Assembly (NCBI RefSeq): GCF_036320485.1
Contig: NZ_CP132911.1
Coordinates: forward strand, 62,001 to 126,000
DNA: 64,000 bases
Reading direction: 5' to 3'
Source of the DNA: Dyella sp. A6
GTDB lineage: Bacteria > Pseudomonadota > Gammaproteobacteria > Xanthomonadales > Rhodanobacteraceae
Within the stretch, counting starts at the first letter, position 1. Every line of letters begins with the position of its first letter. Below the pieces are notes generated by a model. That model did no database searches. It had not been told where the DNA came from and worked only from the letters and a program-made list of their open reading frames with translations. This document shows positions 33,061 through 59,995 of the stretch, piece by piece. A program made the position numbers and the translations under genes.

Positions 33061-34071
33061 ATGCGCCTCATTCAGTTTTTGGACGATACCCATGCTCCTC
33101 GCGTGGGCCAGGTTTCTCCCGATGGAACGACGGTGCGCGAAGTCACCGGGCATGCTTCGGTCTACGATCTTGCAAGTTATGCCCTGGCCCATCAGCGGTC
33201 GCTTGATGATCTCGTGGCCGCACACCTGGGCGGGCGGAGCTACGACTACGCAAAGCTCCTCGATGAGTTGCGCGTGCTTGCGCCGCTCCGGCATCCGGAC
33301 CCGGCTCACTGCCTGGTGACCGGTACCGGCCTCACCCATACGGGCAGTGCGTCGGCTCGTGATGCCATGCACCAGAAGCAGGCCGCCGCCGGTGACGATG
33401 ATGCATCGCTGACCGATTCGATGCGGATTTTCCGCTGGGGGATGGAAGGTGGTCGTCCGACGGATGGTCGCCCCGGCGCGCAGCCGGAGTGGTTCTACAA
33501 GGGCAATGGCGACATGGTGGTTGCACCGGGTGCACCCCTGCATTCCCCCGCTTTTGCACTCGATGGCGGCGAGGAGCCCGAACTGGTCGGCCTCTACCTG
33601 ATCGACGGGGAAGGCTGTCCACGACGGATTGGTTTTGCCCTGGGCAACGAGTTTTCCGATCACGTCACCGAGCGTCAGAACTACCTCTATCTCGCGCATT
33701 CCAAACTGAGGCAGTGCGCCATCGGCCCCGAGATCTGGACCGGGCCGCTTCCCGCCGATCTGCGTGGCACCAGCCGCATCCGTCGCAACGGCAACGTCAT
33801 CTGGGAAAAGCCGTTCCTGACCGGTGAGGCCAACATGTGCCACTCGCTGGCAAACCTCGAATACCACCATTTCAAATACGCCGCGCATCGACGCCCTGGC
33901 GACGTGCACATGCACTTCATGGGCACTGCGACGCTGAGTGTTGCCGACGGCATTCGAACCGAACCCGGTGACGAGTTCGAGATCGACCTGCCGGCGCTTG
34001 GTGCCGCTCTGCGCAATCCGCTGAAAGTCGCCGACGCCGAGTTCGCGATGGGCGACGTACGACCGCTGTAG
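33061..34071 (+). CDS. FAH-family AraD1/GguC-like protein (sugar-acid dehydratase candidate)
   Basis: The 336-residue protein has the fumarylacetoacetase-fold core with acidic metal ligands around GGEEPELVGLY and GNEFSDHV, and the C-terminal HFMGTATLSV, as in AraD1/GguC proteins found in pentose-oxidation operons. It would convert 2-keto-3-deoxy-L-arabonate to alpha-ketoglutarate semialdehyde, the substrate of the enzyme encoded 12 nt downstream. The classic AraD of this step is a DHDPS-fold protein, so the assignment rests on family and operon context. It is cytoplasmic and heads the operon. Confidence 0.8.
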   Translation: MRLIQFLDDTHAPRVGQVSPDGTTVREVTGHASVYDLASYALAHQRSLDDLVAAHLGGRSYDYAKLLDELRVLAPLRHPDPAHCLVTGTGLTHTGSASARDAMHQKQAAAGDDDASLTDSMRIFRWGMEGGRPTDGRPGAQPEWFYKGNGDMVVAPGAPLHSPAFALDGGEEPELVGLYLIDGEGCPRRIGFALGNEFSDHVTERQNYLYLAHSKLRQCAIGPEIWTGPLPADLRGTSRIRRNGNVIWEKPFLTGEANMCHSLANLEYHHFKYAAHRRPGDVHMHFMGTATLSVADGIRTEPGDEFEIDLPALGAALRNPLKVADAEFAMGDVRPL

Positions 34072-34083
34072 GAGCTTGACCCG

Positions 34084-35520
34084 ATGACGCAGAAATACGA
34101 GAGCTACATCGCCGGCCGCTGGGTCGGTGGCAAGAGCTTTTCGCCGGATGAAAACCCTTCCGATCTGGACAACCCGGTCGGCGAGTTCGCCGATGCCGAC
34201 GCGGCGGATGTGGCAGAAGCCGCTGCAGCCGCCAAGGTCGCCCAGCGAGCCTGGGCTGCAACGACCCCGCAGCAGCGCGCCGATATTCTGGACCGGATCG
34301 GCAGCGAGATACTGGCGCGCAAAGAGGAGTTGGGTCGGCTGCTGGCGATGGAGGAAGGCAAGCGCCTGCCCGAGAGCATGGGCGAGGCCGCACGCGCCGG
34401 ACAGATCTTCAAGTTCTTCGCGGGCGAAGCGCTGCGTATTCCCGGTGAACGCCTGGCCTCCACCCGCCCTGGGGTCGATATCGAGATCACCCGCGAGCCG
34501 GTCGGGGTGGTGGGCATCATCGCTCCCTGGAATTTCCCGCTGGCCATTCCGGCGTGGAAGATCGCGCCGGCGCTCGCCTATGGCAACAGCGTGGTGTTCA
34601 AGCCCGCCGAGTCGGTGCCGGCCTGTGCCTGGGCGCTGGCCGAGATCATCAGCAGGGCCGGCGTTCCCGACGGCGTGTTCAATCTCGTCATCGGCACTGG
34701 CGGCGTGGTGGGCAAGGCGATCGTCGACGCGCCCGAGATCGATGCGCTGAGCTTCACCGGCTCCGTTGCCACGGGAAACCGCTTGCTGCAGGACGCCGCG
34801 GCGCGGGGCCTGAAGATCCAGCTCGAGATGGGCGGCAAGAATCCACTGGTGGTGATGGCCGACGCGGATCTTGATCAGGCCGTGCGATGCGCCATCGATG
34901 GAGCATTCTTTTCCACCGGCCAGCGCTGCACGGCATCGAGCCGCCTGATCGTCGAGCGCCCGGTCTACGACGCCTTTGTTGAGCGCATGCAGAAAGCGAT
35001 GCAGGCGCTCAAGGTCGGGCCGGCTCTGGCTGGCGACACCGATATCGGGCCGGTCGCCAGCGCCCGGCAATTCGAACAGGATCGGTCCTACATCCAGATT
35101 GGCAGGGATGAGGGCGCCCGGCTGCTGTGGGGCGGGGAGACGGTCGACGTGGGGCCGCGGGGCTACTACCTGCAGCCGACCTTGTTCGAGGCACGCCCGG
35201 ATCACCGGATCAGCGTCGAGGAAATTTTCGGTCCGGTGGCCTGCGTGATGCCTGCCGACGATTACGAGCACGCATTGAGTCTTGCCAACGACACCCGATA
35301 CGGCCTGTGTGGCGGAATCTGCACCACATCGTTGCGGCACACTACGCATTTCAAGCGGCATGCGCAGGTTGGCATGGTCATGGTCAACCTGCCCACGGCA
35401 GGTGTCGATCCGCATGTTGCGTTCGGTGGACGGAAGGGATCCAGCTATGGCCCGCGCGAGCAGGGCCGCTACGCCGCCGAGTTCTACACCACGGTGAAAA
35501 CTGCTTACACCGCAGCTTGA
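34084..35520 (+). CDS. alpha-ketoglutarate semialdehyde dehydrogenase
   Basis: The 478-residue aldehyde dehydrogenase begins at ATG 34084 behind GGAGC. It contains the cofactor segment FTGSVATGNRL, the general-base E248 in LEMGGKNP and the nucleophile C282 in GQRCTASS. Length and order are typical of the ALDH superfamily, and the family closest in context is KGSADH, which oxidises alpha-ketoglutarate semialdehyde to alpha-ketoglutarate for the TCA cycle. The 12-nt spacing to the AraD1-like gene supports the last step of oxidative L-arabinose degradation. Confidence 0.88.
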   Translation: MTQKYESYIAGRWVGGKSFSPDENPSDLDNPVGEFADADAADVAEAAAAAKVAQRAWAATTPQQRADILDRIGSEILARKEELGRLLAMEEGKRLPESMGEAARAGQIFKFFAGEALRIPGERLASTRPGVDIEITREPVGVVGIIAPWNFPLAIPAWKIAPALAYGNSVVFKPAESVPACAWALAEIISRAGVPDGVFNLVIGTGGVVGKAIVDAPEIDALSFTGSVATGNRLLQDAAARGLKIQLEMGGKNPLVVMADADLDQAVRCAIDGAFFSTGQRCTASSRLIVERPVYDAFVERMQKAMQALKVGPALAGDTDIGPVASARQFEQDRSYIQIGRDEGARLLWGGETVDVGPRGYYLQPTLFEARPDHRISVEEIFGPVACVMPADDYEHALSLANDTRYGLCGGICTTSLRHTTHFKRHAQVGMVMVNLPTAGVDPHVAFGGRKGSSYGPREQGRYAAEFYTTVKTAYTAA

Positions 35521-35542
35521 GGCCAACGATCGAGATGATAAC

Positions 35543-35557
35543 GTCCGTCTGACGGAC
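35543..35557. repeat. 15-bp palindrome between KGSADH and sugar porter genes
   Basis: GTCCGTC-T-GACGGAC is a perfect palindrome about a single base, in the 135-bp gap before the MFS gene. It could be an operator or a short stem affecting downstream expression. Confidence 0.4.
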
Positions 35558-35655
35558 ATGGCGTACCCAGTCCGCAGTCACCCATACCAAAAGAAAGAAA
35601 AATAGCGTTGCTCTGCCCCGGGGGGTGGCTAACGCATCCATGAGGGGAGAGTGAA

Positions 35656-37083
35656 ATGGATCAAGCAGGTGGAAACGACACCGTGGCACTGGGCGGCATG
35701 GCGAAGGCCGCCCACCCGAAGAAAATCCCGATCATCTACATCGTCGGGCCAATTGCCGCGCTGGCAGGCCTGCTGTTCGGCATGGATATAGGCATCATCT
35801 CCGGTGCGTTGCCGCTGATATCCAAGACCTTCAACGCGTCCGACACCATTCAATCTTCCGTGGTGGCTGCGATGATGGCCGGCGCGGCACTGGGTGCGGC
35901 CGGTGCGGGCTGGCTGTCGCACCGTTTCGGGCGCCGTACCACCTTGCTGATAAGCGGCCTCGTGTTTGCCCTTGGCGCGGTCGGCTGCGCGCTGGCCGCG
36001 AGCGCCTACATGCTGATCGGCATGCGCGCGGTTCTTGGCATGGCGGTCGGCATCTCCTCCTACATCGCACCGATCTACCTGTCCGAAATCGCACCGGAAA
36101 AAAGCCGTGGAGCGCTGATCTCGGGCTATCAGCTCTGCATCATGCTGGGCATCCTGGTGGCTTATCTCGTCGATGCCGCGCTGAGCTACTCGGGCAACTG
36201 GCGCTGGATGCTGGGTTCCATGGCGCCACCGGCGCTGCTGATGGTACTGGCCATGCTGTTCCTGCCGCGCAGCCCTCGCTGGCTGATGTCCAAGCAGCGC
36301 GAGGACGAGGCCATGAGCACCCTGCTCACCTTGCGCCAACACGATCACGATATGGCGCGAGTGGAGATGGTCGCGATCCGCGAGAGCCTGGCCGTGGAGG
36401 GCAGCGGCCTGCGGCTGTTCCTCAAGAACGCCAATTTCCGCCGTTCCACCTTCCTGGGCATGCTGCTGCAGGTGATGCAGCAACTCACCGGCGCCAACGT
36501 GATCCTGTATTACGCACCGAGGATCCTCGGCATGGTCGGCATCACCACCGGCACCGAACGGATGTGGGGCACCGTGGCCATCGGTGCGCTGATGACGCTG
36601 GCCACGTTCATCGCCGTGGGCCAGGTCGATCGCGCCGGCCGCAAGCCGCTGCTCTACATCGGCTACAGCGTGATGGGCGCCTGCATGCTCGGCATGGGCA
36701 TCCTGTTCAAGGTCGGCCTGGGCGGCAGCGCCACTGCTTATATCGCCATCGGCCTGCTGGTGGCCTTCGTGATCAGCTATGCCATGTCTGCCGCGCCGGT
36801 GATGTGGATCCTGTGCTCGGAAATCCAGCCGCTGAAGGGCCGCAACTTCGGCGTGTCGGTATCGACGGTGACCAACTGGGTGAGCAACACCTTTGTCGGC
36901 TTCACCTTCCTGCTATTGCTCGACTCCGTCGGCACCAGCCAGACCTTCTGGATGTATGCCGCACTCAACGTGCTTTTCATCTTCCTGGTCTACCGCTTCC
37001 TGCCCGAGACCAAGGGTGTGGCGCTGGAGCATATCGAACGCAAACTGATGTCCGGCACCCGGCTGCGCGATATCGGTGTCTAG
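35656..37083 (+). CDS. MFS sugar porter (arabinose/galactose:H+ symporter type)
   Basis: The 475-residue protein starts at ATG 35656 with GGGGAGAG upstream. It has 12 predicted helices and sugar-porter signatures: GLLFGMDIGIISGAL in helix 1, HRFGRRT in loop 2-3, PRSPRWLM after helix 6, QLTGANVILYYAP in helix 7 and LPETKG at the end. It belongs to the AraE/GalP/XylE group and should bring L-arabinose or D-galactose through the inner membrane. It is last in the AraD1-KGSADH operon, closed by a terminator. Confidence 0.93.
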   Translation: MDQAGGNDTVALGGMAKAAHPKKIPIIYIVGPIAALAGLLFGMDIGIISGALPLISKTFNASDTIQSSVVAAMMAGAALGAAGAGWLSHRFGRRTTLLISGLVFALGAVGCALAASAYMLIGMRAVLGMAVGISSYIAPIYLSEIAPEKSRGALISGYQLCIMLGILVAYLVDAALSYSGNWRWMLGSMAPPALLMVLAMLFLPRSPRWLMSKQREDEAMSTLLTLRQHDHDMARVEMVAIRESLAVEGSGLRLFLKNANFRRSTFLGMLLQVMQQLTGANVILYYAPRILGMVGITTGTERMWGTVAIGALMTLATFIAVGQVDRAGRKPLLYIGYSVMGACMLGMGILFKVGLGGSATAYIAIGLLVAFVISYAMSAAPVMWILCSEIQPLKGRNFGVSVSTVTNWVSNTFVGFTFLLLLDSVGTSQTFWMYAALNVLFIFLVYRFLPETKGVALEHIERKLMSGTRLRDIGV

Positions 37084-37086
37084 GCC

Positions 37087-37124: not shown

Positions 37125-37200
37125 CGGTGCGTGCAGTGATGTCGGTCGATCGGGCCGGTGCCGCGAAGCGGGTGCCGTTGGTGACAAGGAGTGATCTGTG

Positions 37201-38349
37201 ATGCAGATGTATCGACGTATTCTTGGCGTGTCTCTGGCGGGCGTCCTGCTGATGCCTGCGCTGGCGCTGGCCGCCACGGCGCAAAAGTCGCTGTTCGGCA
37301 CGCTTCCGGACGGAAGGGCAGTGGACGCGGTGACACTGGATAACGGACATGGTATCCGCGTGCGGGTGATCACCTTCGGCGCACGCGTCCAGTCCATCGT
37401 CACCCCCGATCGCAACGGCCACCCCGCCGACATTGCGCTGGGTTACGGCAGCCTGGAGGGCTACCTCGGCAAACGCCAGTTCTTCGGCGCCACGGTGGGC
37501 CGTTTCGCCAACCGCATCGCCAAGGGACGCTTCACCCTCGACGGCAAGACCTACCAGCTGCCGACCAACGACGGTCCCAACTCGCTGCATGGCGGAACCA
37601 AGGGCTTCGACATGCAGCTGTGGAAGATCCTTTCGATCAAGCAGGGCAAGGCCGCCAGCGTCAGCATGCGCTACGTCAGTCCCGATGGCGACCAGGGATA
37701 TCCCGGCACGCTGACAGTGACCGCGACCTACACGCTTTACCCCGATGACCGTCTGACGATCGACTACCAAGCCACCACCGACAAGCCGACCATCGTCAAC
37801 ATCTCCAACCACACCTACTGGAACCTCAACGGCGAGGGCTCCGGCACGGTCTTCAACCAGCGGATGATGATTCCCGCGGCGCAGATCACCCCGGTCGACG
37901 CCACCCAGATTCCGACCGGTGCGTTCCGCGACGTCGCCGGTACGCCGTTCGACTTCCGCAAGGCCAAGCCGATCGGGGCGGATATCCACGACGGTCATTC
38001 CAGGCAGCTGCTGATCGGCCTGGGCTACGACATGAACTGGGTGATCAGTCGCCAGGCCAGCGCCAAGCCGCGCCTGGTGGCACGGATCGTCTCGCCGAGC
38101 AGTGGCCGCGTGCTGAGCCTGTACTCGCGCAAGCCCGGCCTGCAGTTCTATTCCGGCAACTTCCTCAACGGTTCGACCGTCGGCATTTCCGGTCATACGT
38201 ATCGGCAGGGCGATGCTTTCGTGCTTGAACCGCAGCTGTTCCCGGATACGCCCAATCACCCGAACTTCGGCTCGGCCCGACTCAACCCCGGCCAAGTCTA
38301 CCGTAACCGCATTACCTACCGGTTCTCGACCGTGGGCGCCGGGCGCTGA
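37201..38349 (+). CDS. galM: exported aldose 1-epimerase
   Basis: ATG 37201 lies 9 nt after AAGGAG (a GTG at 37198 is also possible) and gives 382 residues with a Sec signal (RRILGVSLAGVLLMPALALAA), so this mutarotase is periplasmic. GalM landmarks are TNDGPNSLHGGTKGFD, the catalytic histidine in ISNHTYWNL and the C-terminal glutamate in VLEPQLFPDTPNHP. It equilibrates alpha and beta anomers of galactose or arabinose freed by the neighbouring glycosidases before uptake. The GH43 gene follows after 11 nt. Confidence 0.9.
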   Translation: MQMYRRILGVSLAGVLLMPALALAATAQKSLFGTLPDGRAVDAVTLDNGHGIRVRVITFGARVQSIVTPDRNGHPADIALGYGSLEGYLGKRQFFGATVGRFANRIAKGRFTLDGKTYQLPTNDGPNSLHGGTKGFDMQLWKILSIKQGKAASVSMRYVSPDGDQGYPGTLTVTATYTLYPDDRLTIDYQATTDKPTIVNISNHTYWNLNGEGSGTVFNQRMMIPAAQITPVDATQIPTGAFRDVAGTPFDFRKAKPIGADIHDGHSRQLLIGLGYDMNWVISRQASAKPRLVARIVSPSSGRVLSLYSRKPGLQFYSGNFLNGSTVGISGHTYRQGDAFVLEPQLFPDTPNHPNFGSARLNPGQVYRNRITYRFSTVGAGR

Positions 38350-38360
38350 AGGGGCGGCGC

Positions 38361-39461
38361 ATGTCTGCATGTCGATCCATGCCGTTGCGGCAGGCCGCTT
38401 CGATCCTTCGTGGGCTTACCGGCGCCGTGCTGCTTGGCGCGTTGTCGATCGGCACCCCGGCGGCCCACGCCGATGCTCCGGTCATCCCGCTCGGCAAGGT
38501 CATCGTCCACGACCCGATGATGATACGTGACGGGGCTATCTGGTACTTGTACGGAACTGGCCGCGGCATCCCTGTCTACAGCTCCGCCGACCTAGTTCAC
38601 TGGCACCCGCGACCGCGAGTGTTCCAGGCGGCGCCGGCCTGGGCGCACCGCACCATCAAGGGCTTCGACGGCTCGATCTGGGCGCCCGAAGTAGCACATG
38701 TCGACGGCCGCTACGTGCTGTATTACGCAGTGTCGGCATTCAAGAAGAACACCTCGGCCATCGGCGTGGCCACCAACGTCACCCTGGACAGCAGCTCGCC
38801 GCGCTATCACTGGGTCGACCACGGCATCGTGGTTCAGTCGATGCCGTATCGCGACCTGTGGAATGCGATTGACCCGGCGGTGATCCGCGGACGCGACGGT
38901 GGCCTGTGGATGGCTTTCGGCTCGTTCTGGGCGGGCCTGAAAATGGTGAAGCTGCGGGCCGACGGTCTGCGACTTGCCACGCCGCAGCAGTGGTATGGCA
39001 TCGCCCGCCGCGAACGTCCGCCGTTCTTCCCGGAAACGCGTCCGGGCCCGGCTGCCGAGGAAGCGCCGTATGTGTTCCGCCATGGTGGCTGGTATTACCT
39101 GTTCGTGTCCTGGGACTACTGCTGCCGGGGCGTGAAGAGCAACTACAAGGTCATGGTGGGCCGCTCGCGCAGTGTGCACGGCCCCTATGTGGATCGCAGC
39201 GGCAAACCCATGGAACAGGGTGGCGGCACGCTCGTGGTCGGTGGTGATGCACTGTATCCGGGCGTCGGCGGCAACGGCGTGATCACCTCCGGGGGCACCG
39301 ACTATCTGGTTTTCCACGCCTACGATGCCAGCGACCATGGCATGCCCAAGCTGAAGATCAAGGCATTGCACTGGAGCGCCGATGGCTGGCCGTCGGTAAG
39401 CCAGGCAGAACTTGATCGCCCTGGCCTGGGCAGGAGCGGGCACACCGGCACCGCGAAGTAA
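38361..39461 (+). CDS. GH43 arabinanase/arabinofuranosidase
   Basis: The 366-residue protein (ATG 38361, GAAGGGG upstream) has a signal peptide and a five-bladed propeller with the GH43 catalytic triad: D51 in VIVHDPMMI, D171 in NAIDPAVI and E234 in AEEAPYVF. The segments GSIWAPEV and WDYCCRGVKSNYKVMVGRS resemble endo-alpha-1,5-L-arabinanases (subfamilies 4-6). It should cut alpha-1,5-linked arabinan side chains or release arabinose in the periplasm. It lies between the epimerase and the six-hairpin gene with short gaps. Confidence 0.87.
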   Translation: MSACRSMPLRQAASILRGLTGAVLLGALSIGTPAAHADAPVIPLGKVIVHDPMMIRDGAIWYLYGTGRGIPVYSSADLVHWHPRPRVFQAAPAWAHRTIKGFDGSIWAPEVAHVDGRYVLYYAVSAFKKNTSAIGVATNVTLDSSSPRYHWVDHGIVVQSMPYRDLWNAIDPAVIRGRDGGLWMAFGSFWAGLKMVKLRADGLRLATPQQWYGIARRERPPFFPETRPGPAAEEAPYVFRHGGWYYLFVSWDYCCRGVKSNYKVMVGRSRSVHGPYVDRSGKPMEQGGGTLVVGGDALYPGVGGNGVITSGGTDYLVFHAYDASDHGMPKLKIKALHWSADGWPSVSQAELDRPGLGRSGHTGTAK

Positions 39462-39466
39462 CCGTC

Positions 39467-41623
39467 ATGTCCGCATCGCCCGACACCCCATCGCGCAGGC
39501 GCTTCATGAAGCTGGCGGCGGGCGCGACGTTCGCGCCATTGCTGGTCGGGACGCGGAACGCCGGCAGCACGCCGACCGGTGCCGCCGATCATGACGGCGC
39601 GGAAGCGCCAGCGCCAGCAGAGTGGGGCGACGGAACCCGGGTACTCGATCACCAGCGTCTGGCCGAGGCGCACTTCGGCAATGACGCGCCTTGGTACCTG
39701 GACAATATTCCGTTCTTCGAAGCGTCCGACGCCCGCCTGACGCAGGTCTATTACTACCGCTGGCAGGTGTTCCGCGCGCACATCCGCGATCTCGGCGCAC
39801 ATGGCCATGTGTTCACCGAGTTCCTCGACGCAGTGTCCTGGGAGCGCAAGCCCTACGGCACCCTCAACGACTCGGCCATCTTTCCCATTCACGATGGCCG
39901 CTGGTTGCGCGACCGGCGCTACGTGGACCGGTTCATCGATTATCTGTACGAAGGTGGCGGCAACGACCGGCATTTCAGCGAGTCGATTGCCGACGCGGTC
40001 CACGCACACTACCTGGTGCACGGCGACGAGCGTCGGGCAGTGCGCCATCTGGCCGCGATGAAGTACGTCTTCAACCGCTGGGATGACCACTACGATTTCG
40101 ACAAGCGGCTGTACTGGGTCGAGCCGCTTTACGACGCGACCGAATACACGATCGCCTCGATCGATGCCAGCGGCGGCACTGACGGCTTCAGCGGCGGGCA
40201 GGCGTTCCGGCCGTCGATCAATACCTACATGTTCGCCAATGCGCGTGCCATCGCCCGGCTGTGCAGACTATCCGGTGACGAGCGCGCGGCCGCCTGGTAC
40301 ACGGGGCGCGCGCAGGATCTGAGAGAGCGTATCGTCAAGGACCTGTGGAACCCCGATTTCCTGCACTTCACCGACCGCTACCAGGTCAGCAACACGCATG
40401 TGCACTACTGGGACTTCATCCGCGGGCGCGAGCTGGTCGGCTACCTGCCCTGGTATGCCAATGTGCCACCCGACCGTGGCGGTTACGCACAGGCATGGCG
40501 GCACCTGCTGTCGCCGCAGCAACTGCGCGGCGCTTATGGCATGCGCACGGTGGAGCCGTCCTATCCGCACTACATGCATCAGTACCGCTACGACCAGGCC
40601 ACCGGTCGTCCCGAATGCCAGTGGAACGGACCTGCCTGGCCGTTCCAGACCGCGCAGGCACTGACCGGCATGGCCAATCTGCTCAACGACTACAGCCAGG
40701 ACGTGGTCACGCCTTCGCACTACGCGATGTTCCTGCGTCAGTTCGCCGACCTGCACATGCTCGATGGTCATCCGGACATCCAGGAGGACTACAACCCGGA
40801 CACCGGCAGGGTGATCGTCGGCCTGCCGCGAAGTCACCACTACTACCACTCGAGTTTCGTCGACCTGGTGATCAACGGTCTGGTCGGTGTGCGGCCCGGC
40901 GAGGGCGACACGCTGGTGGTACGACCGCTGGTGCCGCCGGATGCGTCGGACCCGCACCATCTGGCCTGGTTCATGCTGGAAAACGTGCCGGTGCGTGGTC
41001 ATCTGCTCAGCGTGCAATGGGACGCCGATGGTCGCCGTTACCAGCGTGGTGCCGGCCTGTCGGTCTACCTCGACGGCAAGCGCGTTGCGCATGCGGCCGG
41101 GCTGGCGCGTCTGCAGGTGTCGCTGTCCACGCGCCAGGAACCGACGTCACCACGGCGCATCAACCGTGCCGTCAATGTGTCCGGCAAGGGTTATCCGATT
41201 CCCAGTGCCTCGCGCCACACCGATCCGGCCGAGCTGTACGCCGCGGTCGACGGGCGTCTGTGGTTTTTCGACAACATGGTGCGCGGCTGGGGCGTGGATG
41301 CCTCGCTCGGCGACGACTGGTTCGCGCTGGAGTTTGCCGGGCCGGTCACGCTCGATGCGATGGAAGCGGCCTTCTTTGCCGACGGCAAGCTGGTCGAGGC
41401 GCCGCAGCGCTACGAGATCCAGTATCGCCACCACGGGCAATGGTTCAGCGTGACGCGTACCGACGGTGCCAGCCGGCCGGTGCTTGCCAATGGCGTGGAA
41501 ACGGCGCGATGGACAGCGGCCACGGCACGCCACTGGCGCCTGCGGTTGTGGCACCGGTCGGCGCTGCGGCTGGTGGACTGGCGGCTGTATTCCAGTAACA
41601 CCGAGGTCGCGCTCGACGGCTGA
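39467..41623 (+). CDS. Tat-exported six-hairpin glycosidase with F5/8C domain
   Basis: The 718-residue protein starts with a twin-arginine signal (SRRRFMKLAAGATFAPLL). Residues about 60-480 form an (alpha/alpha)6-barrel of MGH1/glucoamylase type (GRPECQWNGPAWPFQTAQ, DIQEDYNPDTGRVIVG). The last 150 residues look like an F5/8 type C (CBM32-like) carbohydrate-binding domain (LWFFDNMVRGWGVDASLGDD, RYEIQYRHHGQW). The start is 5 nt after the GH43 stop, so it belongs to the same operon. Which glycosidic bond it cuts is not evident; an arabinogalactan branch is inferred. Confidence 0.78.
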   Translation: MSASPDTPSRRRFMKLAAGATFAPLLVGTRNAGSTPTGAADHDGAEAPAPAEWGDGTRVLDHQRLAEAHFGNDAPWYLDNIPFFEASDARLTQVYYYRWQVFRAHIRDLGAHGHVFTEFLDAVSWERKPYGTLNDSAIFPIHDGRWLRDRRYVDRFIDYLYEGGGNDRHFSESIADAVHAHYLVHGDERRAVRHLAAMKYVFNRWDDHYDFDKRLYWVEPLYDATEYTIASIDASGGTDGFSGGQAFRPSINTYMFANARAIARLCRLSGDERAAAWYTGRAQDLRERIVKDLWNPDFLHFTDRYQVSNTHVHYWDFIRGRELVGYLPWYANVPPDRGGYAQAWRHLLSPQQLRGAYGMRTVEPSYPHYMHQYRYDQATGRPECQWNGPAWPFQTAQALTGMANLLNDYSQDVVTPSHYAMFLRQFADLHMLDGHPDIQEDYNPDTGRVIVGLPRSHHYYHSSFVDLVINGLVGVRPGEGDTLVVRPLVPPDASDPHHLAWFMLENVPVRGHLLSVQWDADGRRYQRGAGLSVYLDGKRVAHAAGLARLQVSLSTRQEPTSPRRINRAVNVSGKGYPIPSASRHTDPAELYAAVDGRLWFFDNMVRGWGVDASLGDDWFALEFAGPVTLDAMEAAFFADGKLVEAPQRYEIQYRHHGQWFSVTRTDGASRPVLANGVETARWTAATARHWRLRLWHRSALRLVDWRLYSSNTEVALDG

Positions 41624-43584: not shown

Positions 43585-43726
43585 GCAAGATTTCTCCCCG
43601 ATGGGGTGGCCGGCGACATGATTGTGGCGGCCCCCCATTTTTTTTACTTGCCGTCCTGGTGCCATGAATCTGCGGTCAGAAATCCGGGCCAGGACATGGG
43701 ACCGGGCCAATCGCACGGGAAAATGG

Positions 43727-52605: not shown

Positions 52606-53547
52606 CTATTCGACAAATGGTTCGACCTCGATCCGGCGCGCGCACAGGAAGGCGTCGGCCACCAGTCGAAGCGGACGCAGGTCCACGTCCGAGATGCCCT
52701 CGCGGATGATGTCGGCGAAGCGCCGATAGAGTCCGGGATATTCGCCGGCTAGGTCGAGGCCGCGTGGGCTGTCGGTCGTGCCGTCGACGTGCAGCACCGA
52801 GCCGCCCTCCGACAACGTCAGGATGCCGCTGTCGGTCCGTACCACGATGTCCCAGCTCTGCTTGCCCTCCTGGCGGAAATCCAGGTCCATGTCGATGACG
52901 GCGCCCGAGGTGTCGCGGAAGGCCACGCGTGCGGCGATCGGCGCATCGCGGTTGGACGGCATGTCGAGCTCGCAGCGCTGGACAAAGAAGGGCGATGGAA
53001 GAATGCGGGTGGCGATCGAAAGCGCGTTGATGCCCGGATCGAACACGCCGAAGCCGCCGGGCTCCCAGATCCAGGTCTGTCCCGGATGCCAGACGCGGAC
53101 GTCTTCGCGCCAGGTGATGGTCACGCGCTCGATGGTGCGTTTGCTGAGCCATTCGCGGGCCGGCTCGACGCCAGCAGCGTAGCGCGAGTGCCAGCTGGCG
53201 AACAGGCTGACACGTTGAGCCTTGGCCGCCTCCTGCAGGGCGATGACCTCGCTCAGCGTTTCTCCGGGCGGCTTCTCCAGGAACGTATGCCAACCCTGTT
53301 CGATGGCGAATTGCGCGATGGCCCAGCGGACCTGCGGTGGCGTGCACAACCCGACCGCATCGACCTCGAAGCCGCTTGCAGCCAGCTCGGTGATGTCGTT
53401 GAAATGAGGCAGGTCGCCGACGCTTTCGCCGCGCCGGCTGACGGTGGCCACCAACTCGAGTCCGGGGTCGGCGTGGATCGCGGGAAGGTGCTGGTCGTGG
53501 GCGATCTTCCCCATGCCGACGACGGCGATGCGGATGGGTTTGGACAT
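52606..53547 (-). CDS. L-arabinose/D-galactose 1-dehydrogenase (Gfo/Idh/MocA)
   Basis: ATG 53547 follows GAGGTGA and gives 313 residues. It has the dinucleotide site AVVGMGKIAHDQHLPAI, the catalytic lysine in FLEKPPGET and FDPGINALSIATRIL, closely resembling the Azospirillum L-arabinose 1-dehydrogenase. It oxidises L-arabinose (and probably D-galactose) to the 1,4-lactone with NAD(P)+, the first step of the oxidative pathway completed by the dehydratase, AraD1-like and KGSADH genes. It is cytoplasmic and lies between the receptor and the GH35 run. Confidence 0.9.
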   Translation of the reverse strand: MSKPIRIAVVGMGKIAHDQHLPAIHADPGLELVATVSRRGESVGDLPHFNDITELAASGFEVDAVGLCTPPQVRWAIAQFAIEQGWHTFLEKPPGETLSEVIALQEAAKAQRVSLFASWHSRYAAGVEPAREWLSKRTIERVTITWREDVRVWHPGQTWIWEPGGFGVFDPGINALSIATRILPSPFFVQRCELDMPSNRDAPIAARVAFRDTSGAVIDMDLDFRQEGKQSWDIVVRTDSGILTLSEGGSVLHVDGTTDSPRGLDLAGEYPGLYRRFADIIREGISDVDLRPLRLVADAFLCARRIEVEPFVE

Positions 53548-53759: not shown

Positions 53760-53774
53760 CCTGTTTCGGCGGTC

Positions 53775-56690
53775 CTACTTGCCGAACTGGAAGCGCAGGC
53801 CGGCGCCGAAGTAACGACCCTCGTCACGCACGTCCTGTTCGTACACCAGTTTGTAGCCCGAATAGCCGGTGTAGTCCTGGAACGGGCGGGCCAGCAGGTT
53901 GCTGACGTCGACGTTGAGGCTGAGTTGCTTGGTCAGGTCATAGCTGAATGAGAAGTCCAGTCGGCTGCGGGCACGGGTGCCGTTGTAGGTGTTTCCGCCA
54001 GCAGGATCGTAGCCGTACCAGTTGATCCAGCCCGAGCGGTGGTTGAACGACAGGCGTGTGGTGATGCCGTGACCTTCGTAGAAGATCGAGGCGTTGTAGG
54101 TGTACTTGGACAGGCCAGTGATTTCCACGGGGCTGCTGTACTTGAAGGCGCCGGTCGTCGAGTCGAAGGTCGGGATGGCGTTCTTGCCGTCCAGGTAGGT
54201 GAAGTTGTACTGGAAACCCAGGCCTTTCCATACCGAGGGCAGGAAGGTCAGGAAGGTCTGATAGTTGACCTCCAGGCCGCGGATATGACCTTTGCCGGCG
54301 TTCTCCGGAAGGCTCAGCTGAATCAGGCCGTAGGTCGGGTCTTTCACGTACCGCGTGTAGTTACTGATGAAGCCGTTCACTTCGTGATCGAACACAGCGA
54401 CGCTGGCATAGCCATCCTTGGCGAAGTACCACTCCAGGCTCGCGTCGTAGTTGTGCGAGGTCAGCGGCTTGAGGTTGGGGTTGCCACCCGAGCCATACGC
54501 AGTCACCGCTGCGGCTGGATCGTTCGGATTGGTGATGGTGCCCTGTTGCACCTGGGTGATGTTGAGCGCCGGGTTCAGCTGGGAGAAGTCGGGCCGGGTC
54601 CGCGTATAGGTGTAGCCCAGCCGCAACTGCAGCTTCGGCGTGAAATGGATGCGCATGCTGACATTCGGCAGGATATCCCAGTAGTTCTGATGGTCGGTCC
54701 GGGGCACCTTGCTCAGCGTGCCGGTTGCGTTGGTGACGTTCGATGTGCCCGAGTAGTAACCGACCGTATTGACCGCGCGGAAGCCGATGAGGCCGTCCAC
54801 CGGCATCGGGCCGAGATTGAAGTTGTACTTCGTCTGTGCGTAGGCCGCGTAGCTGTACTCACGGGCACTGAATGCGGCAGCGGGATCGAGTGCCACGTCA
54901 CCAGCCTGGAAGGCCTGCAGGTCACTCAGGTAGCCCTGGTCGCCAGGATTGAGTGCCACCAGTTGCTTCAGTGCCTGGATGGAAAGCTGCTCGAGCTGGG
55001 CGTAGCTACCGGCGATGCCATTGCGTGTCGGCTGCAGGTACTGCGTGAAACTCTGCGCGCTGCCGCGGAACGGGTTGCCGGTCAGCACCAGGGGACCTAC
55101 CGGGAGACTGGCTAACGGAATGGCGAGGGGCAGGGTATAGGCATAGCGTGAGCCTTGCTCGAGTGAGGCCTTGCGCGAGGTGGTGCGGATGCCGAACTGG
55201 AGTGTGTTGAACAGGCTCCACGGGGTGTCCCACTCACCGTCGGCACGCCACTGCCAACCGCTGCCGTTGGACTTGTAGCGGCGCTCGTAGAAGCCACGCC
55301 AGATGTAGTTGCTGGGATCGTTGATGTTGAAGTTGGGCAGACTGAAGGCTGCGCCGCCATCCTTCATGAAGTTGACCACGGTCTCCTGTGGTGTGGTCAG
55401 TGCCGAATCCAGACTCCAATTCCGTGCGCTGTACTGGCTCGTCGTGAAGGCCAGGTCGGTCGACCACGTCAGATCGCCGTCGTACCACTTGGCGCCGGTC
55501 GCCAACTGGTAAGTATTGGTCTGGTCTGCACCGGTGGATCGATACATCTGGGGTGCGTAGCCACCACTCTTGACCAGGCTCTGGACCTGTTCGGTGCCCG
55601 GTACCAGAACAACGTCGGTCAAGGTCGGGTCGCCGCCACGGACGTCATCGTTGAAATTGTCGGTGAAGCCGCGTCCGCGATAGCCCTGCCAGATACCCTC
55701 CAGGTAGTACTCCGAATTCCCGTTCGGCCTGAACTGCACGGCGAAGTTGGCTGACGGACGATCCCGCTTGCCGCCGTCGTTGTACAGGCCGACGTTATAG
55801 GGGTAATAGAAGCTCTGGCCGACCGACGTCGGGCTGACGGACGATCCCGGGCTGACTTGGGTGATGTAGGTGCCGTTGTAGCGCACGCCATTGTGATAGT
55901 GCTCCTGGGCGTAGGTCAGATTGCCCAGAAAGCCCCACTCGCCGAGGCTGTTCTTCCAGCGGTTCGAGTAAAGGAAATTACCATTCGGATCGTACCTGCC
56001 GTTCTCGTCGTTGTAGGTCTCGCGGAACCCACCGGCGATGACCCGGCCCTTGAAGTCGAATGGTCGGCGGGTACGCACGTTGATCAGGCCTGCCAGTCCC
56101 GCAGCGAGCAGATTGGCAGTGCCCGACTTGTATACCTCGATGGCCTGGATGGCCTGGGAAGGGAAATCCTGCAACTGGACCCGGCGAAGCTCGGCGGTGA
56201 AGATGTTGCGTCCGTTGTAAGTGGTGACGATATCCGGCAGGCCGCGCACCAGCACGTTGCTGGTGTCGTCGTCGTAGCGCGAGACCTGCACGCCAGCGAT
56301 ACGGGCGAGACTTTCGGCGGCGGTATTGTCGGGAAGCTGGCCGATGTCCTGCGCCACGACTACGTCGACGATGGCATCTGAGTCGCGCTTGATCTGCTGC
56401 GCCGTCTGCATGCTCATCCGCAACGAGTCGGCCGAGACGGTGACGCCTTTGAGATTGGTGGCTTTCTTGCTGTCTGCCTTGGTCGACTCTTTTTTCTTGG
56501 ACTTTTTGGAGTCGCTTTTCTTGGCTTGCGACTGGTCCTGCGAGACTGCTGCTTGCGGAGCCACAGACAGCGCGCTGCCCACAGTTGATGTGCTTGTCGG
56601 AGACGCGAGTGCCGCGGTCGGCAGCAAGGCTGCGGCGATTGCGGTTGTGATCAGCGTCCGGACGAGTGATGAACGATCATTGCGAGTCAC
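53775..56690 (-). CDS. TonB-dependent receptor, arabinogalactan type
   Basis: A GTG start at 56690 lies 6 nt after GGGGAGG and gives 971 residues. A signal peptide (TLITTAIAAALLPTAALA) is followed by an unusual Lys-rich linker (KKSDSKKSKKKESTKADSKK), the TonB-box-like LKGVTVSAD, the plug (ESLARIAGVQVSRYDDD, GLAGLINVRTRRPFDF) and a barrel ending GAGLRFQFGK. It should import arabinogalactan oligosaccharides released outside. It is divergent from the LysR gene and next to the dehydrogenase, so the two-gene pair ties uptake to catabolism. Ligand inferred from context. Confidence 0.92.
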   Translation of the reverse strand: MTRNDRSSLVRTLITTAIAAALLPTAALASPTSTSTVGSALSVAPQAAVSQDQSQAKKSDSKKSKKKESTKADSKKATNLKGVTVSADSLRMSMQTAQQIKRDSDAIVDVVVAQDIGQLPDNTAAESLARIAGVQVSRYDDDTSNVLVRGLPDIVTTYNGRNIFTAELRRVQLQDFPSQAIQAIEVYKSGTANLLAAGLAGLINVRTRRPFDFKGRVIAGGFRETYNDENGRYDPNGNFLYSNRWKNSLGEWGFLGNLTYAQEHYHNGVRYNGTYITQVSPGSSVSPTSVGQSFYYPYNVGLYNDGGKRDRPSANFAVQFRPNGNSEYYLEGIWQGYRGRGFTDNFNDDVRGGDPTLTDVVLVPGTEQVQSLVKSGGYAPQMYRSTGADQTNTYQLATGAKWYDGDLTWSTDLAFTTSQYSARNWSLDSALTTPQETVVNFMKDGGAAFSLPNFNINDPSNYIWRGFYERRYKSNGSGWQWRADGEWDTPWSLFNTLQFGIRTTSRKASLEQGSRYAYTLPLAIPLASLPVGPLVLTGNPFRGSAQSFTQYLQPTRNGIAGSYAQLEQLSIQALKQLVALNPGDQGYLSDLQAFQAGDVALDPAAAFSAREYSYAAYAQTKYNFNLGPMPVDGLIGFRAVNTVGYYSGTSNVTNATGTLSKVPRTDHQNYWDILPNVSMRIHFTPKLQLRLGYTYTRTRPDFSQLNPALNITQVQQGTITNPNDPAAAVTAYGSGGNPNLKPLTSHNYDASLEWYFAKDGYASVAVFDHEVNGFISNYTRYVKDPTYGLIQLSLPENAGKGHIRGLEVNYQTFLTFLPSVWKGLGFQYNFTYLDGKNAIPTFDSTTGAFKYSSPVEITGLSKYTYNASIFYEGHGITTRLSFNHRSGWINWYGYDPAGGNTYNGTRARSRLDFSFSYDLTKQLSLNVDVSNLLARPFQDYTGYSGYKLVYEQDVRDEGRYFGAGLRFQFGK

Positions 56691-57214
56691 TATAAACCTC
56701 CCCTCGGTATAGGCATGGCATGACGCCGCTCGCGGGTCGTGCCGTCCATTTGCTTTCGCCTTCTCCCCATCGGAAAGCGAGCTATGTAGGTACTTCCTCT
56801 CCCAGCCGAGCTCATGCAGGTCGCCCCGGCGATGGTTCTTGTTCTGCGATTGCGGTAACCGGTTATCTGTGCCGAATTCGCGCTTGGATTAACGGGTCGT
56901 GCACAACGCGAGGCTGCGAAGAACGATCTGAAGCGGGTGCATGGTCGGCTCGTGCTTTGCGGATATTCCTGTTTGGACGACGAACCGGAGAGTTCCCCCA
57001 GGCACAACGAATCCCGATCCGTTCGTTGCTTATTCTGGAGACAGCAGGTATACACAACAAATACTATTTATCGAAAAAGACATATATAAACGCACATATT
57101 TTTTGAGACATTGCAATGCAGCAAAAAGGAATTTGGCTGGATACGTCAGTTAATTGAGATACGCCAATGCATTAAGGCTTGTGGTTCAAAACGATTATTT
57201 CTTGAGGCATTGCA
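56691..57214. promoter_or_regulatory. 524-bp divergent control region, receptor/LysR
   Basis: The half near the receptor is ordinary GC-rich DNA. The half near the LysR gene (57050-57214) is strongly A/T-rich and holds the TNATATWTGTC motif (57079) and a duplicated 27-bp segment that spans the LysR start. A 13-codon frame (57116-57157, MQQKGIWLDTSVN) opens in the first copy. No longer gene was seen. Confidence 0.6.
57079..57089 (-). promoter_or_regulatory. TNATATWTGTC motif, site 3
   Basis: Read on the minus strand the sequence is TTATATATGTC, a full match. It lies 126 nt before the LysR start and 389 nt before the receptor start. Confidence 0.45.
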
Positions 57215-57226
57215 ATGCAACAAAAA
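57101..57226 (+). repeat. 27-bp direct repeat spanning the LysR start codon
   Basis: The segment around 57101-57127 recurs at 57200-57226 with about three differences, 99 bp apart and in the same frame. Each copy includes CATTGCAATGC; in the second copy GCATTGCAATGC (57207-57218) is a perfect palindrome covering the ATG. A self-binding site for the LysR protein or a remnant duplication are both possible. Confidence 0.7.
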
Positions 57227-58171
57227 AGCCCATGGTTTCTGCGCGCGCGACTCAAGACTCGCCATCTGTTGCTATTGGTCGCGATCGAGGAAGAGGGAAA
57301 TATCCATCGCGCGGCCGAGACACTGAACATGTCGCAGCCAGCCGCATCGAAGCTCCTGAAGGACCTCGAGGACTCGATGAATGTGGCGTTGTTCGACCGG
57401 TTGCCGCGGGGCATGCGGCCCACATGGTTCGGTGAAGCGATGATTCGCCATGCCCGGGTCGCCCTGGCCAGTCTTGGCGAAGCGGGTGACGAAATCGAGG
57501 CGCTGAAAACCGGTCATGCCGGAACCGTCAACCTCGGATCCATCCAGGGGCCCAGCGTCACGCTTGTCCCCGACGCCATCAAGCTGGCGGTGAGCGAACA
57601 TCCGAAACTCCGGGTGTCGCTGACCGTGGACACCAGCGATGTTCTTCTGGAGCGCCTTGCGCAGAACAAGCTGGACATCATCGTGGCGCGTCTTTTCGCA
57701 CGACACGACAAGTCCCATCTGCATTATCAGGCTCTTGCCGAAGAGAATATCTGCGCCATCGGTCGCGTCGGGCACCCGTTGCTGAGGAAAAGGCGCCTTA
57801 GGCTCTCCGACCTGGCCGCGGCCGACTGGGTGGTTCCACCGGTGGGAAGCGTGCTGCGGCATCGCTTCGAGCTGATGTTCCAGAACGCCGGGCTACCCAT
57901 TCCCGAGCGCATGATCGAGACCACCGCGCTGGTGTTCGTGCTGAAGATGATGCGGGAGACCGATTATCTGAGCGTGGTGCCCACCGATGTCGCCAACTAC
58001 TACGAGGATCATCGTGTCGTGTCCGTGCTGCCGATCGAGCTCACCTGCAAAATGGATGCGTTCGGGATCATCACCCGGACTGACTGGCTGCTTTCGCCGG
58101 CTGCCCGCATCATGCTGCGGTCCATGAAGACCACGGCCACCGAGGTCTATGGAGTCGAGGATCTCGACTAG
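57215..58171 (+). CDS. LysR-family regulator of arabinose/galactose genes (candidate)
   Basis: The 318-residue protein starts at ATG 57215 inside a repeated segment and has no clear ribosome site. The winged helix-turn-helix (RHLLLLVAIEEEGNIHRAAE, LNMSQPAASKLLKDLE) is followed by a two-lobed effector domain. It resembles LysR regulators of sugar oxidation (AraR of Azospirillum, GguR of Agrobacterium) in sequence style and position next to the receptor and the L-arabonate dehydratase gene. It probably senses a sugar acid and controls the shared motif sites. Target and effector are inferred. Confidence 0.85.
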   Translation: MQQKSPWFLRARLKTRHLLLLVAIEEEGNIHRAAETLNMSQPAASKLLKDLEDSMNVALFDRLPRGMRPTWFGEAMIRHARVALASLGEAGDEIEALKTGHAGTVNLGSIQGPSVTLVPDAIKLAVSEHPKLRVSLTVDTSDVLLERLAQNKLDIIVARLFARHDKSHLHYQALAEENICAIGRVGHPLLRKRRLRLSDLAAADWVVPPVGSVLRHRFELMFQNAGLPIPERMIETTALVFVLKMMRETDYLSVVPTDVANYYEDHRVVSVLPIELTCKMDAFGIITRTDWLLSPAARIMLRSMKTTATEVYGVEDLD

Positions 58172-58209
58172 GGTCCATCGGTATTCTTGATATCGACGAT
58201 GAACGCGGT

Positions 58210-58232
58210 CTCACGGTCAGCATGACCGTGAG
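58210..58232. terminator. bidirectional hairpin between LysR and dehydratase genes
   Basis: CTCACGGTCA and TGACCGTGAG are exact complements around GCA, midway in the 90-nt gap between convergent genes. T-runs are absent on both sides. Confidence 0.6.
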
Positions 58233-58261
58233 TGCCTTAGCCATATCGGCGCGGTTTGCGT

Positions 58262-59995
58262 TCAGTGCGAGTCGCGCGGTACGTCAGCGCCGCTGCCGCC
58301 TACGAGGAAGTCCAGGTCCGCGCCAAGATCTGCCTGCTGGACATGCTCGACATAGAGCTTGTACCAGCCACGCGTGGGCGTCTCGGGCGCCTTCCAGTTC
58401 GCCTTGCGGCGCGCAAGCTCCTCATCACCAACTTCGAGATGGATCCGGCGTCCCGGCACGTCGAGTTCGATCATGTCACCGTCCCGCACCAGTGCCAGCG
58501 GGCCGCCGGCGGCGGCTTCCGGTGATGTGTGCAGCACCACGGTGCCGTAAGCCGTGCCACTCATGCGGGCGTCGGAGATGCGCACCATGTCGGTGATGCC
58601 CCGCTTGAGCAACTTTGGCGGTAGCGGCATGTTGCCGACCTCCGCCATGCCGGGGTAGCCGCGTGGTCCGCAGTTCTTGAGGACCATCACGCAGGTTTCG
58701 TCGATGTCCAGTGCATCGTCGTCGATGCGTGCATGGAAGTCCTCGATGTTCTCGAAGACCACCGCACGACCACGATGCTTCAGAAGGTGGGGCGAGGCTG
58801 CCGAGGGTTTGATCACCGCGCCATTGGGTGCGAGATTTCCCCTCAATACGGCGATGCCGGCCTCGGCCCTGACCGGCTCGTCCATGGTCTTGATGACATC
58901 CCGGTTCCAGCAAGGGGCATTGGCTATGTTCTCCCCAAGCGTATGCCCATTGACGGTCAATGCATCCGTATGAAGATGTGCGGCGATCTCGCGCAGGACG
59001 GCAGGCAGGCCGCCCGCGTAGTAGTAGTCCTCCATCAGGTGCTCGCCCGACGGAAGGAGGTTCACCAGGCAGGGAAGCTTGGAGCCCAGCTCGTCCCAGT
59101 CCTGCAGGTTCAGCTCGACGCCGATGCGACCTGCCAGGGCCAGCAGGTGGATCACTGCGTTGGTCGAGCCACCGATCGCGGCATTGGTGCGAATGGCGTT
59201 TTCAAAGGCCTCGCGGGTAAGGATCTTGGACATGCGCAGATCCTCGTGGACCATCTGCACGATCCGGCGGCCGCTCAGTTGAGCCAACTGGTAGCGCCGC
59301 GAATCCACGGCCGGAATAGCGGCGTTCTCGGGCAGGGACATGCCCAGCGCCTCGACCATGTTGGCCATGGTGGAGGCGGTGCCCATGGTCATGCAGCTGC
59401 CTTTCGAGCGATGCATGCAGGATTCCGCCTCGACGAAGTCCTCGTGTGACATCTCGCCCGCGCGGACCATCTCCGACATCTGCCAGACACCCGTGCCCGA
59501 GCCGATCTTCTGGCCGCGCCAGCGGCCGCTGAGCATCGGGCCGCCGGAGATACCGATAGTCGGAATGTCGCAGCTTGCCGCGCCCATCATCAGGGACGGG
59601 GTGGTCTTGTCGCAGCCCATCAGCAGTACCACGCCATCGATCGGATTGGCGCGGATCGACTCTTCGACATCCATGCTGGCGAGGTTGCGAAACAACATCG
59701 CGGTGGGGCGCATCTGAGTCTCGCCCAGCGACATCACCGGGAATTCGAGCGGAAAGCCACCCGCTTCATAGACACCGCGCTTGACGTATTCGGCCAGTTC
59801 GCGGAAGTGGCCGTTGCAAGGCGTCAGCTCGGACCAGGTATTGCAGATGCCGATGACGGGACGTCCATCGAACAAGTCACCCGGATAGCCCTGGTTTTTC
59901 AGCCAGCTTCGGTAGAGGAAACCACTCTTGTCCGCACTGCCGAACCACGCCTGACTGCGCCGACCTGGCTTCTTCGAAGAACTCATGGCGTGCAT
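58262..59995 (-). CDS. L-arabonate dehydratase (IlvD/Edd family)
   Basis: The 577-residue protein (ATG 59995; ATG 59986 also possible) has the Fe-S ligands C60 or C51 in GICNTWSELTPC, C128 in MGCDKTTPS and C201 in GSCMTMGTAST, with the carbamylatable lysine next to C128. Length and motifs match sugar-acid dehydratases of the L-arabonate/D-fuconate group rather than dihydroxyacid or 6-phosphogluconate dehydratases. It dehydrates L-arabonate to 2-keto-3-deoxy-L-arabonate in the cytoplasm. It is convergent with the LysR gene and has a motif site 128 nt upstream. Confidence 0.9.
   Translation of the reverse strand: MHAMSSSKKPGRRSQAWFGSADKSGFLYRSWLKNQGYPGDLFDGRPVIGICNTWSELTPCNGHFRELAEYVKRGVYEAGGFPLEFPVMSLGETQMRPTAMLFRNLASMDVEESIRANPIDGVVLLMGCDKTTPSLMMGAASCDIPTIGISGGPMLSGRWRGQKIGSGTGVWQMSEMVRAGEMSHEDFVEAESCMHRSKGSCMTMGTASTMANMVEALGMSLPENAAIPAVDSRRYQLAQLSGRRIVQMVHEDLRMSKILTREAFENAIRTNAAIGGSTNAVIHLLALAGRIGVELNLQDWDELGSKLPCLVNLLPSGEHLMEDYYYAGGLPAVLREIAAHLHTDALTVNGHTLGENIANAPCWNRDVIKTMDEPVRAEAGIAVLRGNLAPNGAVIKPSAASPHLLKHRGRAVVFENIEDFHARIDDDALDIDETCVMVLKNCGPRGYPGMAEVGNMPLPPKLLKRGITDMVRISDARMSGTAYGTVVLHTSPEAAAGGPLALVRDGDMIELDVPGRRIHLEVGDEELARRKANWKAPETPTRGWYKLYVEHVQQADLGADLDFLVGGSGADVPRDSH

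Follow-up and report, generated by a model that had tools for sequence, protein, structure and literature searches.

Positions 33061–59995 of the window, the whole 64,000-nucleotide stretch of DNA that was analysed, hold a cluster that a first-pass annotation had read as arabinogalactan degradation joined to oxidation of L-arabinose. Pfam and NCBIfam scans of 17 open reading frames (ORFs) found all the families named there, several of the labels scoring under the curated cut-offs of these collections. Three genes were absent from the earlier list, those for a GH142-like protein (39467–41623), a nucleoside-hydrolase-fold protein (43757–44788) and a LysR-type regulator (57215–58171). The starts given for GH51, GH42 and GH27 are chosen ones. 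The features are:

32940–32985, + strand: promoter/operator block before the arabinose-oxidation operon; 16-bp core at 32940–32955, ~105 bases before GguC
33061–34071, +: GguC/AraD1 family protein, probable L-2-keto-3-deoxyarabonate (KDA) dehydratase (NF040903, 519 bits, cut-off 340)
34084–35520, +: aldehyde dehydrogenase, probable alpha-ketoglutaric semialdehyde dehydrogenase (KGSADH; PF00171)
35656–37083, +: sugar-porter MFS transporter (PF00083, TIGR00879)
37198–38349, +: exported aldose 1-epimerase, GalM type (PF01263, hydrophobic N-terminus)
38361–39461, +: exported GH43, AbnA-like (PF04616)
39467–41623, +: exported (RR motif) MGH1-like glycoside hydrolase, GH142-like beta-L-arabinofuranosidase candidate (PF22422, 240 bits)
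41960–43531, +: exported GH51 alpha-L-arabinofuranosidase (PF06964, PF22848)
43757–44788, +: exported (RR motif) nucleoside-hydrolase-fold protein (PF01156)
44800–46905, − strand: exported GH42 (PF02449, PF08532)
46902–47996, −: second exported GH43 (PF04616; PDB 5c0p ‘endo-arabinase’, E 1.1e-48)
47993–49462, −: exported GH30, probable endo-beta-1,6-galactanase (PF14587)
49459–50826, −: exported (RR motif) GH27, probable beta-L-arabinopyranosidase (PDB 4nx0, E 2.6e-132)
50823–52406, −: exported GH35-like protein with DUF5597 (PF18120)
52606–53547, −: L-arabinose/D-galactose 1-dehydrogenase, Gfo/Idh/MocA family (PDB 4ew6, E 4.6e-101; 6jnj, E 2.6e-98)
53775–56690, −: TonB-dependent receptor (TIGR01782, 547 bits, cut-off 310)
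57018–57063, −: second copy of the promoter/operator block, facing the TonB-receptor/glycosidase operon; core at 57048–57063, ~357 bases before the receptor
57215–58171, +: LysR-type regulator, candidate for both operons (PF00126, PF03466)
58262–59995, −: IlvD/EDD family protein, probable L-arabonate dehydratase (PF00920)

Labels below a cut-off include those of the aldehyde dehydrogenase (top NCBIfam model NF042993, KGSADH, 501.9 versus 770), the first GH43 as AbnA (NF053747, 268 versus 480) and the GH35-like protein (NF051902, 435.5 versus 500; PF01301, 26.7 versus 27). The IlvD/EDD dehydratase scores just below the cut-off of the L-arabinonate dehydratase model PRK13016 (877.3 versus 882) and passes that of the subfamily PRK06131 (959.7 versus 539).

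By its matches to solved structures the GH30 falls with the galactanases, known from GH30_5, rather than with the GH30 xylanases, as had been supposed; its nearest solved structure is the endo-beta-1,6-galactanase 24td (E 1.4e-44), followed by 3clw (4.1e-14), 7n6h (3.7e-10) and the xylanase 6iuj (2.8e-6). Its Glu211 and Glu310 are kept and align with glutamates of the galactanase that we take to be catalytic. Residues 72–550 of the GH142-like protein match residues 649–1102 of PDB 5mqr (‘beta-L-arabinobiosidase’, E 8.5e-79), the C-terminal domain of BT1020, which belongs to GH142. In the GH27, Ile121 (counted on the 488-aa ORF) is aligned to Ile67 of Abp (4nx0). In GH27 beta-L-arabinopyranosidases Ile or Glu replaces Asp at this specificity position, according to PMC4598101, and because of its Ile the GH27 probably has that activity. 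A fit of the enzyme set to the side chains of type II arabinogalactan is supported. The earlier proposal of breakdown of arabinogalactan-protein glycans is supported for the side chains and not for the whole glycans: an enzyme for the beta-1,3-galactan backbone was not recognised in the locus, whose GH43s are placed at family level only, and the 20 ORFs family-scanned include none that would act on glucuronate or rhamnose caps (glucuronidase, rhamnosidase). The whole genome has four GH43 matches, two of them inside the locus.

The main target could instead be pectin, namely the alpha-1,5-arabinan and galactan side chains of RG-I together with a GH142-type activity, type II arabinogalactan being secondary; GH142-type activity is known from rhamnogalacturonan II. 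Such a target would suit the AbnA-like and 5c0p-like GH43s, the GH142-like protein nearest to 5mqr and the GH51. However, the best solved relative of the GH30 and the arabinopyranosidase Ile of the GH27 both fit type II arabinogalactan, and neither a polysaccharide lyase nor GH28 or GH53 was found among the 20 ORFs family-scanned; we regard pectin as an unlikely main target.

The presence in the locus of the oxidative L-arabinose pathway genes, except for the lactonase, is supported: those for a sugar dehydrogenase, an aldonate dehydratase, a KDA dehydratase and KGSADH are all there, the aldonate dehydratase and KGSADH scoring below NCBIfam equivalog cut-offs. No lactonase was found in the locus. 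The genome's single SGL-family lactonase match is at 3.33 Mb, next to a galactonate dehydratase; this separate galactonate locus is the probable destination of galactose. The first-pass annotation had the arabinose burnt completely; that this gene set alone would do so is not supported. The predicted structure of GguC is of low confidence (mean pLDDT 63); its match to an FAH-like fold is a lead, backed by family and context.

Upstream of each of the two operons, the one for arabinose oxidation and the one for the TonB receptor and glycosidases, lies a 46-bp block with a 16-bp core. With up to three mismatches allowed, the window contains two copies of the core, where shuffles predict 0.03; with up to two allowed, a search of the full 3.72 Mb genome likewise gives two copies, both exact and in the locus, and none for the backward control. 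Of the 32 bases 3′ of the core, a stretch picked post hoc, 23 are identical between the copies, which none of 20,000 shuffles reached. The copies agree at 39 of 48 positions inside the block and at 15 of 48 beyond it, as expected of a kept element. The distance from core to start differs between receptor (~357 bases) and GguC (~105), and the arabonate dehydratase has no copy of the core in front at up to three mismatches. Among 14 congeners the core was found in G011 only, where it is exact and lies between GguC and LysR; 5 of 39 other relatives have it at one or two mismatches, and it is not confined to an arabinose/arabinogalactan system everywhere. The shared block suggests that both operons are switched on together from a common promoter element, and it supports the proposed joining of glycan degradation to arabinose oxidation.

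The two parts of the cluster seem to differ in history. Among the 14 congeners GguC was found only in G011, and at full length it was found in 3 of 40 relatives of the host; the GH30 and the nucleoside-hydrolase-like gene were found in none of the 40. The nearest relatives found for GH30, GH27, GH42, the sugar dehydrogenase and the nucleoside-hydrolase-like protein come from Sphingomonadales. In 19 alphaproteobacterial genomes, picked for having the nucleoside-hydrolase-like gene, GH30 was found in nine, strongly in eight, and GH27 adjoins it in five of these eight. The locus looks like a mosaic: its arabinose core resembles that of G011, and its arabinogalactan module is closest to modules of Sphingomonadales. 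We infer the direction of transfer, the glycan-degrading operon having probably been acquired; the arabinose core, itself rare, may also be mobile. Empty-site evidence of insertion was not obtained among the 14 congeners; the left flank gene has relatives at just 44–48% identity in 12 of them, the right flank anti-sigma gene is present in five, and the four of these five neighbourhoods that were compared have no match to the 17 locus genes.

The difference in nearest relatives, together with the ~357 bases between block and receptor start, could also mean that two independent loci are adjacent by chance, the block being a general promoter or a functionless rearrangement relic at the receptor operon. 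We consider this very improbable, since at up to two mismatches the genome has the core only in front of these two operons, since among the congeners only the one with GguC has it, since agreement between the copies drops outside the block, and since Aurantiacibacter luteus has matches to both parts within 40 kb.

The nucleoside-hydrolase-fold protein was analysed separately. The longer ORF, 43622–44788, scores 41.8 bits with PF01156 (cut-off 34.2). In the model of 43757–44788 (pLDDT 83.9), the best 50 PDB fold matches are all nucleoside hydrolases (top E 1.9e-12), and the Asp-rich N-terminal motif DND...GDPDG is invariant in the family alignment. Nucleoside hydrolases have a leaving-group His-Asp motif near the C-terminus; at the apparent equivalent place, as judged from the alignment, all 25 aligned sequences have Gly269-Asp270. 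Since the Asp-rich motif is kept, Gly apparently takes the place of His, an export signal is present and GH51 adjoins, the protein might be a glycoside hydrolase of plant glycans whose substrate is an L-arabinofuranoside or some other furanoside, which we regard as doubtful. A GH51 match lies within 10 kb of the gene in A. luteus, Novosphingobium rosa and Sphingobium lactosutens (partial), but 77 of 80 loci (the best 80 of 280) have no such match. In 22 of the 80 loci we looked at 68 neighbour ORFs; among 25 listed of the 82 Pfam families, TonB-receptor domains occur in six ORFs and the other families in at most three. Recurrent neighbour clusters are mainly those of Bacteroidetes, Actinobacteria and four Novosphingobium loci. 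The idea that the gene regularly accompanies arabinogalactan loci was rejected, with GH51 in 3 and GH42 in 4 of the best 80 loci (flanks up to 10 kb).

We propose, with a probability of roughly three in four, that this carbohydrate-utilisation locus is of the TonB type and serves type II arabinogalactan, namely its arabinose-rich side chains, with co-induced oxidation and a mosaic history. The target would be beta-1,6-galactan capped by alpha-L-Araf, beta-L-Arap and perhaps also beta-L-Araf. The TonB receptor would bring oligosaccharides into the periplasm, where the exported GH30, GH35-like and GH42 enzymes would cut the galactan, and GH27, GH43, GH51 and the GH142-like enzyme would release L-arabinose. 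The exported epimerase would interconvert anomers before import by the MFS porter, and in the cytoplasm the Gfo/Idh dehydrogenase, IlvD-type dehydratase, FAH-fold GguC and semialdehyde dehydrogenase would convert L-arabinose to alpha-ketoglutarate. Release and oxidation would be induced jointly because LysR probably acts on the block common to both operons; the receptor operon of the Sphingomonadales-like module would now lie beside LysR and behind the arabinose promoter block. In this host, from outside the Alphaproteobacteria, a glycan operon that was probably acquired and an arabinose operon have a genome-unique promoter block in common, and this offers a testable example of the wiring of a new polysaccharide module into existing sugar catabolism. 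The locus also yields candidates for an arabinopyranosidase, a beta-arabinofuranosidase and a galactanase.

Among known systems, the locus compares with the TonB-dependent carbohydrate utilisation (CUT) loci of the Xanthomonas/Caulobacter type. Like them, it clusters a TonB-dependent receptor, exported glycosidases (export being read from N-termini), an inner-membrane MFS porter, a regulator and catabolic genes; here, the substrate would be type II arabinogalactan side chains and the catabolic part non-phosphorylative arabinose oxidation. A SusC/SusD pair, as in Bacteroidetes-type PULs, was not found: no SusD-type family occurs in the 17 locus ORFs scanned, small ORFs lying outside the scan.

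In A. luteus KA37 (NZ_LBHB01000001.1, 1277001–1317000; two adjoining 20-kb stretches, tblastn) 12 of the 17 locus genes have matches: GH42 and GH27 (66% identity each), dehydrogenase and nucleoside-hydrolase-like gene (65% each), GH30 (63%), GguC (54%), GalM (52%), GH51 (48%), TonB receptor (46%), dehydratase (43%), GH43 (39%) and, partially, the semialdehyde dehydrogenase (34% over 286 residues). GH142, the second GH43, GH35, MFS and LysR have no match there at E 1e-12, and the 16-bp core is absent at up to three mismatches. The arabinose cluster of G011 has the dehydratase (88.5%), KGSADH (79%), MFS (78%), GguC (72%), GalM (71%), LysR (70%, beside GguC) and GH51 (53%). It differs in having a short-chain dehydrogenase and no Gfo/Idh match, and also has GH31 and another GH43; its GH27 (44%) has Gln at the Ile position. 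The 20 kb fetched from G011 gave no match for GH30, GH42, the TonB receptor or the nucleoside-hydrolase-like gene.

PMC4598101 reports Ile at the specificity position in the GH27 enzymes CpArap27 of Chitinophaga pinensis and Abp of Geobacillus, and growth of Chitinophaga on arabinogalactan with a GH27 arabinopyranosidase. The Ile is in common with our GH27; host and gene setting differ, as does the RR-motif export signal. Route II of L-arabinose oxidation, as outlined in PMC6336799, runs through a dehydrogenase, an acid-sugar dehydratase and a 2-keto-3-deoxypentonate (KDP) dehydratase to alpha-ketoglutarate; the paper assigns the known L-KDP dehydratase to the dihydrodipicolinate synthase superfamily and also describes KDP dehydratases of the FAH type in Herbaspirillum. 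Here, in contrast, the fourth step would fall to a GguC/AraD1 protein with an FAH-like fold. Our search of the open-licence literature turned up no description of a locus like this from bacteria of this kind.

Profile scans (Pfam and NCBIfam) of the open reading frames at 33061..59995 recovered every family that the first-pass annotation had listed within this span; the specific names KGSADH (alpha-ketoglutaric semialdehyde dehydrogenase), L-arabinonate dehydratase (877 of 882 bits), GH35 and AbnA score under their curated cut-offs. Three genes were absent from that list:

39467-41623, GH142-like enzyme
43757-44788, nucleoside-hydrolase-like protein
57215-58171, LysR regulator

An export-like hydrophobic segment was read at the start of ten locus proteins, including GH42 and GH27, and the N-termini of the sugar dehydrogenase, the GguC/AraD1 protein, KGSADH and the dehydratase have no exported look. 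GguC matched no family in the Pfam scan. TonB-receptor matches number 31 in the single 3,716,880-base contig, of which the window covers bases 62001-126000. In the plasmid collection the contig's 16S rRNA comes nearest to Aeromonas caviae (87.5%), Methylomagnum (87.2%) and Burkholderia (about 87%), and full-length alphaproteobacterial matches reach 78-83%, which places the host on the gamma/beta side, outside the alphaproteobacteria.

The best solved match of GH30 is a secreted endo-beta-1,6-galactanase (24td, E 1.4e-44), followed by 3clw, an unnamed protein (4.1e-14), and by AcXbh30A and xylanases (3.7e-10 and weaker); GH30 residues 211 and 310, the glutamates of PFNEP and MSEND, align with glutamates of 24td. 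GH27 best matches the Geobacillus beta-L-arabinopyranosidase Abp (E 2.6e-132). As given in PMC4598101, the GH27 specificity determinant is Ile67 in Abp versus Asp in alpha-galactosidases; in our alignment the locus enzyme has Ile at this position, and the GH27 of congener G011 has Gln. Among solved structures, D-galactose and L-arabinose 1-dehydrogenases match the sugar dehydrogenase with about the same strength, so the enzyme may serve both sugars.

By searching for words common to intergenic regions we found a 16-bp core that precedes GguC, lies between the TonB receptor and LysR, and recurs between GguC and LysR in G011; at all three sites it is oriented toward the structural operon. The window has two copies with up to three mismatches (0.03 expected), within blocks at 32940..32985 (+) and 57018..57063 (-), and the whole genome has two with up to two mismatches, both exact and both at the locus (reversed-pattern control, 0). 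Among 40 relatives only G011 has the exact core; copies with one or two mismatches occur at 14 places in five others. Nine of these places are in G032, a genome in which the control pattern itself has 11 matches. Likeness extends about 30 bases downstream: in a 32-base stretch, picked post hoc, the two window copies share 23 of 32 bases, and 16 of 32 columns are invariant across all three sites, neither value being reached in 20000 shuffles. Past this stretch only 15 of 48 bases are shared by the window copies. Within the window, a 46-base pattern matches just these two places, but, being drawn from the same sites, it describes them and does not test them independently. Since LysR and block are adjacent in both genomes, the LysR protein is plausibly paired with the block. 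The original title, arabinogalactan degradation 'fused' to oxidative L-arabinose catabolism, is largely right, and with the shared block the word 'fused' takes on a concrete sense.

The 40 relatives were searched for GH30 and for the nucleoside-hydrolase-like gene, and neither was found in any of them. The arabinose core is sporadic as well, because full-length GguC occurs in just 3 of 40. Among the 120 database matches listed for each, named GH30 relatives come from Sphingomonas, Hephaestia, Novosphingobium and Caulobacter; those of the nucleoside-hydrolase-like protein are mostly from Sphingomonadales and Caulobacterales, joined by Niveispirillum, Massilia and a Burkholderiaceae bacterium. 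In the list for the GH142-like enzyme unnamed entries rank on top and the named others are mostly alphaproteobacterial. GH30 was matched in 9 (8 strongly) of 19 alphaproteobacterial genomes selected for having the nucleoside-hydrolase-like gene, and GH27 adjoins it in five of those eight. Aurantiacibacter luteus has matches to 12 of the 17 locus genes inside 40 kb, and its sugar dehydrogenase is 65% identical, versus 54-57% in relatives G025 and G024. The simplest reading of these sequence comparisons is that the glycosidase module was transferred from the Sphingomonadales, or alphaproteobacterial, direction.

A predicted model of the nucleoside-hydrolase-like protein has a nucleoside-hydrolase fold (Foldseek E 1.9e-12, TM about 0.6). 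Outside this locus the gene's neighbours differ from genome to genome. The family spans Proteobacteria, Bacteroidetes and Actinobacteria (25-protein alignment A1; L019-L098, the best 80 of 280 loci). Many members carry an RR-type export signal, and a GD is invariant in A1, presumably standing where nucleoside hydrolases carry HD.

Within the locus, where the GH43s were read at family, not subfamily, level, we recognised no enzyme acting on the beta-1,3-galactan backbone, and no lactonase was found there. The genome's single SGL-family match lies at 3.33 Mb. Contig positions 3327701-3335692 (L126 9701-17692) hold in a row galactonate dehydratase, a short-chain dehydrogenase, the SGL lactonase, an MFS sugar porter and a TonB receptor; the galactonate dehydratase scores 683 bits (cut-off 311). 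This is probably an oxidative galactose locus, to which the galactose half may be routed.

Elsewhere in the window, a second carbohydrate locus at 1763-12620 (minus strand) looks like one for malto-oligosaccharide/starch: it has a TonB receptor, a tryptophan-halogenase-family protein, a GH31 and two GH13, of which one ends in a SusG C-terminal domain. A LacI-type regulator lies at 14903-16012. The three NAGLU domains are all present in a GH89-type alpha-N-acetylglucosaminidase at 17397-19628, and a sortilin/BNR-repeat protein of 1137 aa lies at 23405-26818 (minus strand), its start overlapped by a DUF418 protein ORF (26779-28083). At 60209-63798 are an ECF sigma factor, an RskA-type anti-sigma, a secreted-repeat lipoprotein, an outer-membrane protein and a globin, whose counterparts in congeners G013 and G007 lie at most about 11 kb apart in a different order.

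G011 has clustered relatives of GH51 (53% identity), GalM (71%), MFS (78%), KGSADH (79%), GguC (72%), LysR (70%) and the dehydratase (88.5%); GH30, GH42, the TonB receptor and the nucleoside-hydrolase-like gene are unmatched within the 20 kb fetched. G025, of another family, has a comparable core accompanied by ABC-transporter genes, a GH43 and a GH127. The locus itself is of an already known kind, the TonB-type utilisation loci.
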